Part shown: piece after piece, positions 10,310 to 30,228 of the stretch
Position numbering within the stretch: the stretch's first letter is position 1
How the letters are laid out: the number at the start of each line of letters is the position of its first letter
Virus record (IMG/VR): IMGVR_UViG_3300029448_000256
Location: 1-30,228 of that record
DNA from: a virus
Strand: one strand, 5' to 3'
Length of the DNA stretch: 30,228 bases
Notes under the pieces: model-generated
The model's input: only the letters and a program-made list of their open reading frames with translations
What the model was told of the DNA's origin: nothing
Databases searched by the model: none
Made by a program: the position numbers and the translations under genes

Positions 10310-10402
10310 GGCGACGTTTGAATAGCTGGTGCTTTCCGCGGCCTTCAAAGCCGTAGTGTAGTAGTTGATACTACAGGTGGGTTCGATTCCTATCCGTCGC
10401 CG
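10310..10402 (+). tRNA. selC: tRNA-Sec-like (anticodon TCA, UGA-decoding)
   Basis: The fold has the hallmarks of bacterial selenocysteine tRNA. The acceptor strands are eight bases (GGCGACGT/CCGTCGCC, seven paired, the eighth T-C mismatched) followed by a 5-bp T-stem with loop TTCGATT. The D-stem has six pairs (GAAAGC/GCTTTC with one bulged T at 10323) and only a four-base loop, TGGT. The anticodon stem is GCGGC/GCCGT with loop CTTCAAA, the same loop as E. coli selC, and anticodon TCA at 10345-10347. A 7-bp extra arm occupies 10357-10375 (TGTAGTA/TACTACA). The discriminator is G10402, with no encoded CCA. A serine-type opal suppressor is the alternative, but the D-arm and the 8+5 layout argue for Sec. 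Confidence 0.88.
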
Positions 10403-10403
10403 C

Positions 10404-10698: not shown

Positions 10699-10801
10699 GG
10701 TTTTCTCCCGTTAGTTAGAAAAAAAGGTCACCCAGTTAAATTCAGAACCGAGTAACCCTCAATAATAACTATGTTGTTAACAAATAATAAACTTCAATAT
10801 A

Positions 10802-10847
10802 TATTTATATATGAAAGTTTTTAGGTTATTCTATATTTATAGATGAG
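10802..10847 (+). promoter_or_regulatory. Two candidate late-promoter motifs in the divergent spacer
   Basis: The 170-base spacer between the minus-strand gene and the structural operon holds TATTTATATATGAAAG (10802-10817) and TATTTATAGATGAG (10834-10847). The first shares 15 identical bases with a site before the T9SS cargo gene. The complement of the core reads TATAAATA, the T4 late-promoter consensus, so the sites could face the minus-strand gene, the structural genes or both. The rest of the spacer shows nothing else clear. Confidence 0.45.
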
Positions 10848-12719: not shown

Positions 12720-13133
12720 ATGTCGGCAACTGAAACAGATTTAAATCCTAATAAAACCGTTGGACTAAAATTACCATTGGGACGAGATAAACTAAATGAT
12801 TTTAGTTTAACTAAAACTTCATTAGAACAAGCTCAGTATAATTTAAAAAATCTATTACAAACCTATATAGGTGAAAGACCTATGCAACCAGAATTCGGTA
12901 GTAGATTAAGAGAACTATGTTTTGAACCACAAAATGATGAATTACCTCAAAAGATTGAAACAGAAGTTAGAAGAGCAGTTTCTGAATGGTTGGACTATAT
13001 AAAAATTCAAGAAGTCGAAACTCTAACCGAAGAGGGTGATTTAAATCAAGTTTATGTTCAAATAAAATATAACACGATATTGAATCCAGATACGATGGCT
13101 GAGATAACATTAAACGCCACAGGAGCATATTAA
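12720..13133 (+). CDS. Baseplate wedge protein, gp25-like (GPW/gp25 family)
   Basis: The 137-residue protein is close to the 132 residues of T4 gp25. It shows the family pattern: VGLKLPLGRD, LEQAQYNLKNLLQTYIGERP, PEFGSRLRELCFEPQND and the helix IETEVRRAVSEWLDYIKI, ending in short strands. In contractile injection systems this protein nucleates the sheath at the baseplate inner ring. The ATG follows the preceding TAA directly, and the stop overlaps the gp6-like gene by one base. Confidence 0.93.
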   Translation: MSATETDLNPNKTVGLKLPLGRDKLNDFSLTKTSLEQAQYNLKNLLQTYIGERPMQPEFGSRLRELCFEPQNDELPQKIETEVRRAVSEWLDYIKIQEVETLTEEGDLNQVYVQIKYNTILNPDTMAEITLNATGAY

Positions 13134-15124
13134 TGGCACGTACAAGTAATAATAAGAATGTAGTAAAACAAGTAAACTATTTAAATAAAGATTTTAGTGA
13201 TTTTAGAGAAAGTTTAATTGAATATGCAAAGGTTTACTTCCCTAATACCTACAATGACTTCAATGAAGCCTCACCAGGAATGATGTTTATCGAGATGGCT
13301 GCGTACGTTGGCGACGTACTATCATATTACATCGATTCTACGTTTAGAGAATCACTTCTTGCTTATGCAGAAGAAAAAAGAAATGTTTATAATATAGCAC
13401 AATCTTTTGGATACAAACCAAAAGTTACGACACCTGCTACAGCAGTTTTAGATGTGTTTCAGACGATACCAGCTTTTAATGGTAAACCAGACAATAGATA
13501 TTCTCTGAATGTGAAGGCAGGAACAACTATACAAGCAGCAAGTACTGGTACAAAATTTAGAACTATAGAAGATGTAAACTTTAAATTTTCAAGTTCTTAT
13601 GACCCAAAAGAGGTAACGGTTTTTGAAAGTGATAGTGGTAGTGTAACAAAGTTTTTACTTAAAAAACAAGTAAAAGTAGAAAGTGGTAATATAACATCTG
13701 AAAAATTTACATTTGGTGCAGCTGAAAAATACACACAAATAAAGTTAGGTAGTCCTGATATAATTGAAATCATATCTTGTATTGATAGTGATGGTAACGA
13801 ATGGTATGAAGTTGATTCACTTGCTAAGGATACGATATTTGAAGATATGGAAAATAATTCTGAAACAGACCCTACATCCGTTATCAATCGTGATGTAGCT
13901 CCATATATTTTAAAATTGAAAAAAACACCACGTAGATTTACAACTTATATAAATGATGAAGATGAAACCATATTAAGATTTGGAGCGGGAGTATCAGACA
14001 ATCCAGATGAGGAAATTATACCTAACCCCACAAACGTAGGTTCAAACTTACCTGGTAGTCCTTCTAAAATAGGAAGTGCTTTTGACCCAAGTAATTTTTT
14101 AAAGACAGAAACTTATGGATTAGCTCCATCAAGAACAACGTTAACAATTAAATATTCTCACGGTGGTGGTATAGATGATAATGTAAATTCAAATGACATT
14201 AATCAAATACAAGGTATTTCATACGAGATACAAGATGCATTATTAAATGGTAATACGGTAGCAGAATCAAAAAATTCTGTATCGTTTACTAATCCAAGAC
14301 CAGCCACAGGTGGTTCGGCCGGACAAACAATTAGAGAGGTTCGTGAAAGTGCTTTAGCATATTTTCAGGCACAAAGTAGAGCAGTTACAAAAGAGGATTA
14401 TGTAGTAAGAGCATTAGCATTACCACAAAAATATGGAAATATAGCAAAAGTTAATATGGTTCAAGATGACCAATTAAACAAAGCAACTGGGATTGACGAA
14501 CTGGAAAGAAAAGTAACTCAAGCTGATGTAGATAACGGAAGAACAATTAAGTCTTTACAAGTTAGAACACCTAACCCACTAGCTATGAATATGTATACAC
14601 TAGGTTATGATTCTAATAAAAACTTAACACCATTAAGTCAAACCGTAAAACAAAATTTAAAAACATATTTATCACAATTTAGATTAGTAACAGATGCTGT
14701 AAATATAAAAGATGCATATGTTATAAACATAGCTGTTAATTTTTCTATTTTAACAAAGACTGGGTTCAATAAAAATGATGTTCTTCTTAGATGTGTTGCT
14801 ACTTTACAAGATTTTTTCAATATAGATAGGTGGCAAGTAGGACAACCGATTGTAATGTCAGACCTAGCATATGAGTTGTCATTAGTTGATGGAGTTTCTT
14901 CAGTTGTAAAACCAACTGAAAACAATCCTAATGATTTACCAATAGTAATTGAAAACAAATATAAAATTACAGAAGGTTACTCTGGTAATTTTTATGATAT
15001 AAATAGTGGTATAATTGATGGAGTATTGTATCCTGCTTTAGACCCAAGTATTTTTGAAATTAAATATCCTAACGCAGACATTAAGGGTAAAGTTGTCGGC
15101 GATAATTTAGGTGTAGTGGAGTAA
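13133..15124 (+). CDS. Baseplate wedge protein, gp6-like (baseplate J family)
   Basis: The 663-residue protein matches T4 gp6 (660) in length and place. The N-terminus has LNKDFSDFRESLIEYAKVYF and MMFIEMAAYVGDVLSYYID, the helical arm that ties wedge proteins together. The core contains REVRESALAYFQAQSRAVTK and EDYVVRALALPQKYGNIAKV, the baseplate-J-like segment. It forms the dimer that joins wedges around the hub. It follows gp25 with a one-base overlap. Confidence 0.93.
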   Translation: MARTSNNKNVVKQVNYLNKDFSDFRESLIEYAKVYFPNTYNDFNEASPGMMFIEMAAYVGDVLSYYIDSTFRESLLAYAEEKRNVYNIAQSFGYKPKVTTPATAVLDVFQTIPAFNGKPDNRYSLNVKAGTTIQAASTGTKFRTIEDVNFKFSSSYDPKEVTVFESDSGSVTKFLLKKQVKVESGNITSEKFTFGAAEKYTQIKLGSPDIIEIISCIDSDGNEWYEVDSLAKDTIFEDMENNSETDPTSVINRDVAPYILKLKKTPRRFTTYINDEDETILRFGAGVSDNPDEEIIPNPTNVGSNLPGSPSKIGSAFDPSNFLKTETYGLAPSRTTLTIKYSHGGGIDDNVNSNDINQIQGISYEIQDALLNGNTVAESKNSVSFTNPRPATGGSAGQTIREVRESALAYFQAQSRAVTKEDYVVRALALPQKYGNIAKVNMVQDDQLNKATGIDELERKVTQADVDNGRTIKSLQVRTPNPLAMNMYTLGYDSNKNLTPLSQTVKQNLKTYLSQFRLVTDAVNIKDAYVINIAVNFSILTKTGFNKNDVLLRCVATLQDFFNIDRWQVGQPIVMSDLAYELSLVDGVSSVVKPTENNPNDLPIVIENKYKITEGYSGNFYDINSGIIDGVLYPALDPSIFEIKYPNADIKGKVVGDNLGVVE

Positions 15125-25414: not shown

Positions 25415-25448
25415 ACACGCATACCTACATTTTTCATTATATATATGA

Positions 25449-25463
25449 TATTTATATATGAAA
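25449..25463 (+). promoter_or_regulatory. Candidate late promoter of the surface module
   Basis: TATTTATATATGAAA is identical over 15 bases to a site in the spacer before the structural operon (10802-10816). It lies 63 bases before the TTG start of the T9SS cargo gene, in the 112-base spacer after the fibre genes. Confidence 0.5.
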
Positions 25464-25526
25464 TAAAGTCTATACTTTTTATTCTAAAAGGTTACCTCAT
25501 TTAGAAACATATTAAGGAGATTTACT

Positions 25527-28355
25527 TTGAGTAAACTTTTTTTTAGTCTATTGATGGTGTTGAGTTTTTTACAAGCCCAAACACCAATTATTAGACTTAT
25601 GCAAAGCAGAGACTACAAGACACCAAAGATGTGGTGGAGAGACCAAGAGACATTTAAGTTACGGGGGTATTTAGCAGACGATACAACTGGTATGAATACA
25701 GCTAATGCCACGTCTGGTGTTGCATATAAGAACAATAACTTTGATGTCTGGAGAGATTCAGTAATGACAATGGCTGTTACACTTGATGATAACGGAGCAA
25801 GTGTTACTGCATTTCGTTTAGACCTAGCTTTTGACAATGATTTATTCACGTGGGGACACGATTCAACTCACGTAGAGAAAGGTGCATATATAAATGGTTG
25901 GACTGAAGGAGATAGTTCAGCAGGTGCACATTACTCTTACGAAGTCGTTAGGTATGCTAATGTAGGATATACCGATTCATTAGCAGATGCTGATGATGAA
26001 TTATCTGCAAGTGATAATAGATATGATTGGTTAAGAATAACAATGGTATCTCATAATGGGAATGTAAAAACATTTGGAAATGGTAATGGTACACAAACAG
26101 AATTATTAAAACTACATTTTAAAGTTAATGATGTAGCTGACAACTTCGCACCAAGAGCCTTTAGAGTTGCTACAAAATACGATGGTAGTACAGGATATTA
26201 TACTTACGTAACAAACGGATTTTATGCATCTAATTATAAAGTATACATTGATGGTAACACTGGTACAGAAGGAGTTGGTATAGGTGGTGCTCGTGGTGAT
26301 ATTACACTACACCCAAAACTATTAGATATTGAGGGATACTTCAGATACGCTCAAGGTAAAGATAGAGCTCTTGGAGCCGCTTGGAGTGCACCAGCAGAAA
26401 ACACATATCCATATTGGAAAGTAAAATTTGAGTTAGATAGAAACGAAGCCAACTTTAGTCCAAGAATATCTAATTGGTTAAATTTAGAGAATACTACTAA
26501 CGAATCTAATTTAGTTGATGAGGATAACTCCGATGACGTTATTGGAGACCACACATCAACATTTTATTATGATAACAAATCAACAACTGCTTTACAGGCA
26601 TTACCCAAAGAAGGATTTCTTGGTATATCTTATTATGATTCAACTTACACGGACCATAAAGGATATTATAGTATTCAGTTACCAAGAAATAACAGATATC
26701 GTATCTCGTTTTGGCCACCTGATGCAAGTGATAACATTGAAGCACATAATCAACTTGAGTTAGATAGAACTGCAATTACAAATGCAAATGATGCCATAGC
26801 TTCATTTAATTTCCAATCAGGTAAACATCATAACTATAATAGTGGTGGTGGTAGAATAGATACGTTAACTGCTATAGAATATTTAATCGGTGATGTAGAT
26901 GGTGATGATTTGTATCAACTAAATGACACTTATATATTATGGGCTTATGTATCAAGTATTTTAGATAACTACACACATCATAATGGAAATACTTATGAAG
27001 ATTGGTCTACGATAGAAGTGTTTAAAGAGGGTGGAAGTGCTAATAACTATGTGTATTATCAAACTCTAAACGGACAATCAAGACCACAGAAATACGAGTT
27101 TACGGTTTATTGGGACGAGACCACAACCGCAGAATCAGGTACTGCAGGAGATAGGTCATCTGGTGTCAATAATGGATTTAAATCACCAACAACGACAACA
27201 AGAGCTTTAGCTACCGCTCAAAAAGCATTATCGTTTGGTCAGATAGAAACTATAAACCCTTTGATGGATGACCATCAAACAGGATTAGATACACTTCACT
27301 TAATATTAGGTGGAGGTTACTCATCGTGGAGTGCAGCAAGAACGAGTGAACAAAGTGGTCAAGCAGGTAACCCAGATTATTTAATGCCTGATATAGGATA
27401 TTATTTTACAGGTGATGTTAACGCTACAGGAACTAAAGTTACTGAGGGTGGTGGAGATGGATATCAAGATGATATTTCTTCTAACACATTTTATCGCTGG
27501 AGCGGGGGAAGTGCACCAGGAAATCACTTAAATAAAGTGATGGTAAATAATGCAGTTGTAAACGCAGATGTAGAACTTTCATTACCAGCTGATTCTACGG
27601 TTAGAGTTCAATCTGGTAATCAAATAGAAATACCACTAACGATTACACCTAAAGAGGGAGTTCTTATAGCTGGATTTGAATTTGAAGTAGAATATAAAGA
27701 AGATGAATTAAAATTCATAGATATGAAAACAGATATATTACCAGGTCCTTGGATGACGTATGTGAATGTTCACGAAGCTGTAAATGGTTGGAGAAAAGTA
27801 TCCTTTGGTGGAGTTGATTATTCACCAAATAATAAACCTGAAACATATTGGATAGATAAAGAAATTACAGGATTAAATTTATTATTTGAAGCAAACTTTC
27901 CTGATAGTGAGTGGACAACAGCACCTATAAGATTTACAGGTAAATACTCAGCTGGAACACCTGCAGGTAGAGATTTATTAATGAAAAGAAATGATGGTAA
28001 AGTATTAGTATGGAATAAGTATTGGGCATTCGGTGGTGGTAAACCTGATAATGATGAGATAACATATAATTATCCAAATCCATTTATAGATAATACGACA
28101 TTTCAATTTTATTTACCAGAATCAAAAGATGTAAAATTATATATTTTAAATACAATGGGACAAAAAGTTGGAACATTATTAGATGAAAATGTTTTAGCTG
28201 GACTACATACATTTGATTTCACAAATGAACCTAGTGTATGGATACCTGAAGTTAGTGTATACGAAAATCACAAAACTTTAGAACCAGGAGTTTATATCTT
28301 TGTATTACAAACAGATAACAGAATTAAAGCTAATAAATTTACGGTCGTAAAATAA
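25527..28355 (+). CDS. Exported multidomain protein with T9SS C-terminal sorting domain
   Basis: The start is TTG 25527, six bases after AAGGAGA. Residues 1-17 form a Sec signal peptide (MSKLFFSLLMVLSFLQA, then QTP). A cohesin-like beta domain spans about 75-215 (TMAVTLDD, VTAFRLDLAFDNDLF). A dockerin-like calcium loop, GDVDGDDLYQLNDTYILWAY, lies at 455-474 and a second Asp/Gly-rich segment near 629. A clearer cohesin-like domain is at about 690-815 (IEIPLTITPKEGVLIAGFEF). The last 95 residues match T9SS type A sorting domains: YNYPNPFIDNTTFQFYLPES, VKLYILNTMGQKV, LEPGVYIFVLQ and a final KANKFTVVK. Such domains direct passage through the host outer membrane and surface attachment. The next long gene is a PorV-like T9SS barrel. 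Signal and sorting domains are atypical of virion proteins, so surface display on infected cells is my reading. Confidence 0.87.
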   Translation: MSKLFFSLLMVLSFLQAQTPIIRLMQSRDYKTPKMWWRDQETFKLRGYLADDTTGMNTANATSGVAYKNNNFDVWRDSVMTMAVTLDDNGASVTAFRLDLAFDNDLFTWGHDSTHVEKGAYINGWTEGDSSAGAHYSYEVVRYANVGYTDSLADADDELSASDNRYDWLRITMVSHNGNVKTFGNGNGTQTELLKLHFKVNDVADNFAPRAFRVATKYDGSTGYYTYVTNGFYASNYKVYIDGNTGTEGVGIGGARGDITLHPKLLDIEGYFRYAQGKDRALGAAWSAPAENTYPYWKVKFELDRNEANFSPRISNWLNLENTTNESNLVDEDNSDDVIGDHTSTFYYDNKSTTALQALPKEGFLGISYYDSTYTDHKGYYSIQLPRNNRYRISFWPPDASDNIEAHNQLELDRTAITNANDAIASFNFQSGKHHNYNSGGGRIDTLTAIEYLIGDVDGDDLYQLNDTYILWAYVSSILDNYTHHNGNTYEDWSTIEVFKEGGSANNYVYYQTLNGQSRPQKYEFTVYWDETTTAESGTAGDRSSGVNNGFKSPTTTTRALATAQKALSFGQIETINPLMDDHQTGLDTLHLILGGGYSSWSAARTSEQSGQAGNPDYLMPDIGYYFTGDVNATGTKVTEGGGDGYQDDISSNTFYRWSGGSAPGNHLNKVMVNNAVVNADVELSLPADSTVRVQSGNQIEIPLTITPKEGVLIAGFEFEVEYKEDELKFIDMKTDILPGPWMTYVNVHEAVNGWRKVSFGGVDYSPNNKPETYWIDKEITGLNLLFEANFPDSEWTTAPIRFTGKYSAGTPAGRDLLMKRNDGKVLVWNKYWAFGGGKPDNDEITYNYPNPFIDNTTFQFYLPESKDVKLYILNTMGQKVGTLLDENVLAGLHTFDFTNEPSVWIPEVSVYENHKTLEPGVYIFVLQTDNRIKANKFTVVK

Positions 28356-28471
28356 TGAATGAGGGACAATTTTTCTTAGCAGTAGCGGCAATGTTACCAG
28401 CATTATATTATACGATGAAACTTATTGTTTGGTTTTCAGATAAAATGGAAGAAAAAAATGAAAAAAAATAA
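28355..28471 (+). CDS. 38-residue single-helix membrane peptide
   Basis: The ATG shares one base with the stop of the T9SS cargo gene. The product MNEGQFFLAVAAMLPALYYT continues MKLIVWFSDKMEEK and has one hydrophobic helix at about residues 6-27 with a charged C-terminus. It overlaps the PorV-like gene by 14 bases. Tight coupling suggests a real gene of the same transcription unit. Function unknown. Confidence 0.55.
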   Translation: MNEGQFFLAVAAMLPALYYTMKLIVWFSDKMEEKNEKK

Positions 28472-29330
28472 ATTTTGGATACTATTTGGTTTGACAATAT
28501 TACTATCGTTAGGTAGTCAATTATTAGCACAAGCTAACAGAATACTTACACTAACACCAACTGCACATACAAGTTCAATTGGTAATGTAACGTTACCGAT
28601 GATGAATCCAGCACGTAATCTTTATAATAAAGATAAGTTTAGTTTTAGTAGAGTTAATTGGTTGACTAATATCGTTAATGATATGAGTTATAACTTTATA
28701 GATTTTGATAGAGGTCCTTTTGGTGCTAATGTTATGTTCTTTAATTATGGAGAACAAAATCAAGCAGATGAATATGGGATTATACAAGGAACATTCACAC
28801 CATTGAGTGCAGTATATGGATTCAATTATGGTAAAACATTTAAATATGATACGAGTTCATTTCATTTAGGATTTGATACTAAAATAATAACACACGATTT
28901 ACACACACAAACTGCAACAGGATTTGTTTTTAGTGTAGGTGGTTATTTTCCTAAAGTTTTTAAGGATTTAGATGTTGATGTTATGGTTCAGAACTTCGGT
29001 ATAGCACCTAAATTCAGTGGACATAAATCAGAGTTACCTACAAGTGTGAATATAGGATTTAGTTATCCATATAAAGAATGGATGCTTTATGGACAAAACA
29101 ATTTTCATAAAGGATATTATACATTTGGAAGTGGAGCAAGTTACAATTATAAAAATATGTTATGGGGAAAAGCAGGATATTATGGTGATTTAGACCACGA
29201 TTTATTTTACCCTACATTTGGAATTGATTTTAAATATGATAAGTATATTATAGGTATGAGTTATATTTATGGAGACAAGACGTTACCATTAGGTAACACT
29301 ATTAGATTAACTATTAACTTGGAGTTATAA
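28458..29330 (+). CDS. PorV/PorQ-like outer-membrane barrel (T9SS shuttle)
   Basis: I choose ATG 28458; upstream in-frame starts fall in the preceding gene, and this start gives a textbook signal peptide (MKKNKFWILFGLTILLSLGS, then QLLA and cleavage before QAN). The mature protein of about 266 residues is an alternating-strand barrel of the FadL/PorV type: SSIGNVTLPMMNPARNLYNK near the N-terminus, LHTQTATGFVFSVGGYFPKV, ELPTSVNIGFSYPYKEWMLY and a C-terminal NTIRLTINLEL strand. In FCB bacteria PorV binds T9SS cargo at its C-terminal domain and carries it to the attachment complex. The gene lies 102 bases after a T9SS cargo gene. PorQ or another barrel is possible. Confidence 0.75.
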   Translation: MKKNKFWILFGLTILLSLGSQLLAQANRILTLTPTAHTSSIGNVTLPMMNPARNLYNKDKFSFSRVNWLTNIVNDMSYNFIDFDRGPFGANVMFFNYGEQNQADEYGIIQGTFTPLSAVYGFNYGKTFKYDTSSFHLGFDTKIITHDLHTQTATGFVFSVGGYFPKVFKDLDVDVMVQNFGIAPKFSGHKSELPTSVNIGFSYPYKEWMLYGQNNFHKGYYTFGSGASYNYKNMLWGKAGYYGDLDHDLFYPTFGIDFKYDKYIIGMSYIYGDKTLPLGNTIRLTINLEL

Positions 29331-29379: not shown

Positions 29380-29772
29380 ATGGCAAAAAATAAAGTAGTA
29401 GACGCTGAAGCAGCTGTCGAAGAAATAAAAAATAAAAAGTTTGGACTATCAATCCAAAATATCATAGCACTTGTAACGGTTTTATCCACAGGTATCGCAG
29501 GTTGGTATTCATTTACTGGTCGTATCGATGGTTTAGAAGAAATTGTTGAAGGTTTTGCTGAAGCTAGTGATATAGAATTAGTAACAACTAAACTTGAAAA
29601 GTATGATGAAGATTTTAAATATCTTCGTGAGAAAGTTGATAAGATGAAAACACCTAAAGTTAAGTCTTATGATAAAGATGTAGCTAATTTAAACAATGAA
29701 ATCAAAGATTTGAAAAGACAAATCAAGAAATTAGAAAAATTGTTGAAAGACCCTTTATCTGATTTAAGATAG
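29380..29772 (+). CDS. Membrane-anchored coiled-coil protein
   Basis: The 130-residue product has a short charged N-terminus, one hydrophobic helix at about residues 27-45 (NIIALVTVLSTGIAGWYSF) and a long Lys/Glu/Leu coiled coil from about 78 to the end (VANLNNEIKDLKRQIKKLEK). AGGAGA precedes the ATG. The topology, a helix followed by a coil, resembles phage spanin-like or structural anchor proteins, but no specific family is identified. The stop is TAG. Confidence 0.75.
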   Translation: MAKNKVVDAEAAVEEIKNKKFGLSIQNIIALVTVLSTGIAGWYSFTGRIDGLEEIVEGFAEASDIELVTTKLEKYDEDFKYLREKVDKMKTPKVKSYDKDVANLNNEIKDLKRQIKKLEKLLKDPLSDLR

Positions 29773-29781
29773 GAGATAAAA

Positions 29782-30228
29782 ATGAAAAAACTATTACCTT
29801 TACTATTAGTATTTTTCGGTTGTGCAGCTTCCGTATCAACAGAACAATATGTAGGTGAGTATGAAAAACAAAAATCAATGGATGAAGTTGTTGTAACTAA
29901 AGTTGATGGATTAAAAATTCTTGAAGTCAAAGCTAATAAAGAAATGGAAGAACGATATCCTGAACTAGCTGAGAAGAGAGTTGCTTTTGGTCTAACACAA
30001 GAACTTCAGAACGTTGTATCTTATATCGGTAGATTTAATATGATTGAAGCCGACAGAGATATGCAGTTAGCTATTAGAAATGATTTGAAAGCTAACAATG
30101 CTAAAATCACAACAGCAAAGTATTCTGGTTATGTAACCATTTATGATTTTGCTGTAAATCTAAAAGAAGAAATAAAAGCAGGTAAGGTGGAGACTATCAA
30201 TGAAACAATAGTTGGTATTCAGGTTAAA
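29782..30228 (+). CDS. Lipoprotein, possibly CsgG-like (runs off window end)
   Basis: At least 149 codons are open to the edge. The N-terminus is a lipoprotein signal: MKKLLPLLLVFFGC, with Cys14 as the lipidated residue. It is followed by ELAEKRVAFGLTQELQNVVS, then GRFNMIEADRDMQLAIRNDL, and AKYSGYVTIYDFAVNL. The order of a long helix, an 'R-F-x-x-I/V-E' strand and a later 'G-x-V-x-x-Y/F' strand recalls CsgG-family secretion lipoproteins. AGGAGA lies seven bases before the ATG. Similarity is partial and the C-terminal half is missing, so CsgG is a possibility only. Confidence 0.7.
   Translation, partial: MKKLLPLLLVFFGCAASVSTEQYVGEYEKQKSMDEVVVTKVDGLKILEVKANKEMEERYPELAEKRVAFGLTQELQNVVSYIGRFNMIEADRDMQLAIRNDLKANNAKITTAKYSGYVTIYDFAVNLKEEIKAGKVETINETIVGIQVK

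Follow-up and report, generated by a model that had tools for sequence, protein, structure and literature searches.

Can a bacteriophage supply its host's secretion system with both a substrate and the outer-membrane carrier for that substrate? This question is raised by a 30,228-base virus record (IMG/VR record IMGVR_UViG_3300029448_000256, the whole of which is referred to here as the window), in which a gene for a 942-residue protein ending in a type A sorting domain of the type IX secretion system (T9SS) is followed, between positions 25,449 and 29,330, by a gene for an outer-membrane barrel of the PorV/PorQ family. The two products are called here the cargo and the barrel, and their genes are the start of a larger conserved envelope module. 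The analysis has established the presence of the C-terminal sorting domain (CTD), the family and fold of the barrel, the strict pairing of the two genes, their co-inheritance and the purifying selection that acts on the module. The module is best read as a phage-borne surface-display module, with a probability of roughly 0.6; export of the cargo by the T9SS is probable, and the barrel plausibly acts as the carrier or anchor of the cargo.

The cargo gene extends from 25527 to 28355 on the plus strand, where the other parts of the locus between 25448 and 30228 also lie, and encodes what can be described as a T9SS type A substrate with a cohesin-like domain. The N-terminus of the protein, MSKLFFSLLMVLSFLQAQ (residues 1-18; 25527 to 25580), has the look of a Sec signal peptide when judged by eye and not by a signal-peptide predictor, and on the same inspection the complete cargo homologues have a short basic start, a hydrophobic stretch and an end that is mostly AQ, SQ, GQ or PQ. 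At the opposite end, the CTD (residues 847-942; 28065 to 28352) is matched by TIGR04183 over residues 849-940 and model positions 2-71 of 72, with a score of 28.7 bits where the curated cut-off is 23, and the same model matches 31 of 31 non-redundant cargo homologues (E up to 0.01). A lysine that hardly varies and lies near the C-terminal end has been described as a feature of type A CTDs (PMC10994853); K937, near the C-terminus of the cargo, is invariant in the cargo alignment (A1) and lines up with the lysine of cellular CTDs. These results bear out a first-pass annotation of the locus, made from the sequence alone, which had proposed a signal-peptide-bearing protein with a type A T9SS domain. 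That annotation had also considered that the C-terminal domain might prove to be a virion immunoglobulin-like (Ig-like) domain; this was looked for and not found, the domain being of the T9SS kind with cellular relatives.

When the cargo profile was compared with 396 Flavobacteriales genomes, cellular matches were confined to the CTD columns, the single longer match (in genome G001) being the phage contig itself, and the remainder of the cargo had no recognised cellular relative in this set. Since cellular T9SS cargo matches the profile over the CTD alone, the tag belongs with those of cellular T9SS proteins. The cargo alignment, when searched against genome contigs, recovered one phage contig in a Flavobacteriales metagenome-assembled genome (MAG) and one weak match restricted to the CTD, while tblastn searches of 50,697 phage records gave no match for the cargo or for the barrel. 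An NCBIfam scan of the pair matched TIGR04183 and PorV_fam and returned neither the type B CTD (TIGR04131) nor the PorP/SprF-family model. Preceding the CTD, residues 681-845 (27567 to 28061) form a cohesin-like domain, which scores 20.0 bits with the Pfam model Cohesin (PF00963), below the gathering score of 24.1, and whose predicted fold has cohesins as its top Foldseek matches; as the structure model of the whole cargo is poor (mean pLDDT 53), this is the only domain of it that can be described. Within the CTD, alignment places an insertion of 15 residues (901-915; 28227 to 28271) that is present in the phage cargos aligned and absent from the cellular CTDs aligned.

The barrel (290 residues, with a signal peptide; 28458 to 29330) scores 92.2 bits with the PorV/PorQ family model NF033709, for which the cut-off is 90, and 28 of 28 of its homologues match the family (E up to 0.001). 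PorV was the sole match in a profile search of the PDB (E 2.5e-14). The AlphaFold2 model of the barrel (pLDDT 87) has the PorV chains 8gl6_F and 6h3i_F as its best structural matches with both Foldseek and VIA, the VIA Z scores being 30.3 and 29.5, against 27.5 for FadL, the next in rank. When cellular members of the family are included in a tree, the phage barrels form one clade (100/97) that is weakly sister to PorV (92/62); the cellular paralogues in this tree include proteins that we take to be PorQ. An assignment of the barrel to PorQ was ruled out by the tree and by the PorQ equivalog model NF033711 (67.2 bits against a cut-off of 220). The barrel thus belongs to the PorV/PorQ family as a member specific to phages and is not PorV itself. 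Where the first-pass annotation had a PorV-like barrel in the same transcription unit as the cargo, the relationship holds by sequence and fold, and the alternative of a barrel unrelated to PorV was not found, given that the family cut-off is passed and the fold is closest to PorV; the likeness stops short of identity, however, since the barrel falls below the equivalog cut-offs of both PorV and PorQ and forms a clade of its own.

In the viral contigs, the two genes are strictly paired. The cargo was found at 68 loci and the barrel at 60 when viral contigs were scanned, and in the other viral contigs with at least 400 nt after the cargo, the barrel is directly behind it in 49 of 49, so that the survey of related contigs proposed at the outset recovered the same gene pair throughout. 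In the newly found distant loci, which came from a separate barrel scan, every untruncated barrel has a cargo in front. Behind the barrel, the genes CC (29380 to 29772), an inner-membrane protein predicted from its sequence to have a single transmembrane segment and then a coiled coil, and LIPO (29782 to 30228), a lipoprotein whose gene is interrupted by the end of the window, follow in 36/36 contigs with enough room. Genes after LIPO are also conserved, namely those for a secreted 327-residue protein that has a YxDPC motif, for another protein of lipoprotein-like type, which the LIPO profile detects, and for a membrane protein. Module genes are under purifying selection, with dN/dS values of 0.05-0.24 in the module and 0.05-0.21 among cargo homologues. 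The 327-residue protein, seen at L080:3893-4873 and after LIPO in relatives, has C-terminal barrel-like strands beside its Y-x-DPC motif and no family match. It is succeeded at L080:4886-5401 by a secreted protein of 172 residues, which in relatives is picked up by the LIPO profile (E ~1e-10), so that LIPO and the 172-residue protein look like paralogues.

The module is placed directly behind baseplate or tail genes in 62 of 66 contigs, but its inheritance is not that of its neighbours. In pairwise distances, tail proteins agree with one another at 0.88-0.92 and with module proteins at only 0.06-0.42, whereas within the module the barrel agrees with the cohesin part of the cargo at 0.81, with CC at 0.73 and with the CTD at 0.72. 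The module is INDEPENDENCE from the tail, the agreement breaking at the short gap between the tail gene and the cargo. Individual contigs show the same: L002 and L003 have modules that are 99-100% identical and tail proteins that are ~60% divergent, and L014 and L024 are identical until about one third into the cargo gene, beyond which L024 resembles L011 at 85-97% through the CTD and the barrel. L014 does not show this resemblance past the switch point, and the cargo C-terminus and the barrel have been swapped together. In L048, L051, L055 and L065, the module adjoins genes other than those of the tail. The module evolves as a block apart from the adjoining tail genes and is exchanged between phages.

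An isolated relative has been identified in the Flavobacterium phage immuto (vB_FspM_immuto; host Flavobacterium sp. LMO8), which was found only through its homologue of LIPO and its related baseplate wedge protein (41.6%). Its protein immuto35A_15 has a signal peptide, a cohesin domain (36.6 bits, cut-off 24.1) and a T9SS CTD (45.4 bits, cut-off 23), is homologous to residues 681-937 of the window cargo (hhalign E 6e-9) and is followed by a membrane protein, the LIPO homologue (28.8%) and a YTDPC protein. Unlike the window cargo, it is a separate short protein that has neither the N-terminal half nor the CTD insertion, and it lies elsewhere in the genome, ~69 kb from the baseplate genes. The immuto genome holds one CTD, and no PorV-family barrel was detected in it. 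A tie between the CTD insertion and the presence of a barrel would be a hint drawn from these two lineages only. The N-terminal half of the cargo was also compared with immuto35A_14, which looks alike in architecture, and hhalign gave no support for this match. Next to immuto35A_15, a secreted C-type lectin protein is encoded (L082:4797-5792; Pfam Lectin_C, 58 bits), and immuto35A_18 has its N-terminus in common with the 327-residue Y-x-DPC protein. As for the hosts, the module-bearing contig mentioned above was binned with a MAG of the Flavobacteriales in which PorV is present and 41 CTDs exceed the cut-off, including the CTD of the phage cargo. Because the host of immuto is a Flavobacterium and this MAG belongs to the Flavobacteriales, the hosts of these phages are likely Bacteroidota, and the same would apply to the host of the window's phage.

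In Flavobacterium johnsoniae, type A substrates exit the SprA translocon bound to the PorV loops (PMC10994853), while each type B substrate gene is immediately followed by the gene of the cognate SprF-like shuttle that the substrate uses (PMC12618676). The phage pair combines the gene arrangement of the type B pairs, with a dedicated shuttle gene directly behind that of the substrate, with the domain types of type A; in the bacterium, the type B CTD is served by PorP/SprF barrels, in contrast to the type A CTD and PorV-family barrel of the phage. The simplest reading of the pair is that of a dedicated carrier. Late in infection, as the timing is presumed to be, the host Sec system would export the cargo and its CTD would enter the host T9SS translocon, where the phage barrel would replace or supplement host PorV, drawing the cargo out and then either keeping it at the outer membrane or leaving it there. 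The cohesin-like and dockerin-like domains of the cargo could then act outside the infected cell with the lipoproteins of the module and the further outer-membrane protein. Compared with the complex of PorV and CTD in the SprA translocon (PDB 6h3i, 8gl6; PMC10994853), the phage pair has the same barrel fold and a type A CTD with the conserved lysine, although its barrel is ~110 residues shorter, has 15-19% identity in structural alignment and belongs to a separate clade. For the purpose of such a display, the likeliest candidate, put forward only tentatively, is the prevention of adsorption of further phages, either as superinfection exclusion or as protection from re-adsorption to debris; capture of cells and alteration of the envelope are other candidates, as are the cell aggregation and altered attachment proposed in the first-pass annotation.

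Several observations weigh against a display module with its own carrier. Type A CTDs are served by the general PorV (PMC10994853, PMC12618676), and as type A cargo can use that of the host, a phage shuttle should not be needed; immuto, for its part, appears to manage without one. The score of the window CTD is modest at 28.7 bits, and the Pfam sorting-domain model gives it 19.3 bits, below the cut-off of 27. The barrel reaches 42.3 bits with the PorV equivalog model NF033710, whose cut-off is 250, and with 290 residues against ~400 in PorV, the loops by which PorV holds the CTD may be reduced in it. Co-inheritance of neighbouring genes, moreover, is partly expected from linkage alone, which explains a part of the agreement but not its break at the gap between the tail gene and the cargo. 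The first two of these points would fit a cargo exported by the host T9SS and host PorV alone, with the phage barrel serving as an outer-membrane pore, an anchor of a surface complex or a receptor mask, and the separate clade of the barrel, whose sister relation to PorV is weak, and the sharing of its fold by FadL-type channels point the same way. This explanation is nonetheless considered doubtful, as it has to face the 49/49 pairing, the recombination history common to the barrel and the cargo C-terminus, and the CTD insertion carried by the barrel-accompanied cargos and lacking in immuto35A_15.

Another explanation would have the whole module act as a machine for lysis and egress suited to the Bacteroidota envelope, the cargo and the barrel acting with CC, LIPO and the products of the genes that follow to break up or rearrange the outer membrane. 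The conserved neighbours do span the envelope, from an inner-membrane coiled coil through lipoproteins to a secreted barrel-like protein, phage curli-type pores have been proposed to serve lysis (PMC9004378), and weak spanin-like PHROG matches were obtained. The spanin matches reach only E ~0.006, however, no endolysin or holin was found among the module proteins scanned, and known lysis routes need no surface-sorted, adhesin-like protein of 942 residues, so that a lysis machine is unlikely. It is still less likely, to the point of being highly improbable, that the cargo is a virion protein, such as a tail fibre or a decorated Ig-like protein, with the CTD match a coincidence of the Ig fold. 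The position directly behind the baseplate and tail genes and the frequency of Ig-like domains in virions would suit it, but the complete homologues have a signal peptide, the CTD exceeds its cut-off and keeps the lysine, and the immuto homologue is remote from the baseplate genes. A role as virion fibre is also unlikely because the module evolves apart from the tail, was exchanged between phages and occurs away from tail genes, as in the four contigs named above. A chimeric assembly, with phage and bacterial sequence joined near 25415, had been considered as well and can be regarded as already refuted: no support for it was found, and dozens of independent contigs have the same gene order.

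Phage-encoded T9SS cargo has been reported before, in Cryophage (PMC7468147) and in crAss-BACON cluster 2 contigs (PMC6949934), where phage genes have type A sorting domains and the host system is presumed to be used; superinfection exclusion was suggested for Cryophage (PMC7468147). In the available text of these reports, the cargo genes are variable (endoglucanase, GH39, PA14, BACON) and no PorV-family barrel is mentioned, in contrast to the present module, which is conserved and in which a single cargo type comes with a barrel. The earlier statement that no example had been described therefore needs to be narrowed: phage T9SS cargo as such is already described in these sources, and the apparently new element is a cargo together with its own PorV-family barrel, no description of a phage PorV-type shuttle having been found in the open-access papers searched. 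A further likeness is to the curli-type pores CsgG/CsgF of pelagimyophages and Melnitz (PMC9004378), in which a phage envelope lipoprotein is also encoded beside a small secreted partner. Homology of LIPO to CsgG is possible (hhalign with the CsgG of HTVC008M, E 0.0025, probability 12%), a search of the PDB with LIPO gave no CsgG match, and homology of the YxDPC protein to CsgF was not detected.

The viruses that carry the pair form a large marine family with Bacteroidota as hosts, and the pair suggests a coating or alteration of the infected cell's surface. Since the module is conserved in such a broad group, it is probably important to infection in marine settings. Known targets of phage hijacking are replication, transcription and metabolism; if the surface-display reading is true, a phage that supplies both substrate and carrier for a host secretion system would constitute a new type of takeover, aimed at the surface of the cell. 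Two questions in T9SS biology would then be open to experiment, namely whether dedicated carriers, known for type B substrates, also exist for type A substrates, and which properties of CTD and barrel determine specificity, with the natural swaps of CTD and barrel between these phages providing ready-made experiments.

The window has a T4-like gene for the baseplate wedge at 13133-15124 and other structural genes that continue as far as 25414, where a gap of 112 nt separates them from the cargo gene. The pair had been described as directly following tail fibre genes; a baseplate and tail block does lie upstream, but the two nearest upstream genes match no family. The gap contains a 16-nt motif, ATATTTATATATGAAA (25448 to 25463), that is identical to positions 10801-10816, where it stands before the structural block, and that is present with at most 3 mismatches in 25/44 upstream regions, the window's own included. 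The shared promoter-like motif of the first-pass annotation is consequently real, although its length is 16 and not 15 nt, and in this AT-rich sequence it is a possible late promoter element. The cargo gene starts with TTG, preceded by AAGGAG. An open reading frame (ORF) for a 38-residue protein with a single transmembrane segment (28355 to 28471) overlaps both the cargo and the barrel genes, and a similar ORF occupies the same place in most of the relatives inspected that have a gap of ~100 nt. Given the overlapping gene ends, the cargo, this ORF and the barrel are very likely on one transcript, and the overlap of the ORF with both genes makes it very probable that the cargo and the barrel are co-translated. 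For the barrel, the listed TTG at 28425 would give 301 residues, and the ATG at 28458 (290 residues) is the more likely start.

Elsewhere in the window, ARAGORN predicts a transfer RNA at 10310-10403, immediately ahead of the structural block; its anticodon is TCA, its variable arm is long, and the program labels it tRNA-SeC. As a stop codon, TGA is in use but rare (4 of 31 genes). Auxiliary genes between 1117 and 5954 encode a peptide deformylase, a QueE-like radical SAM protein, a GTP cyclohydrolase and a phosphoribosyl transferase.

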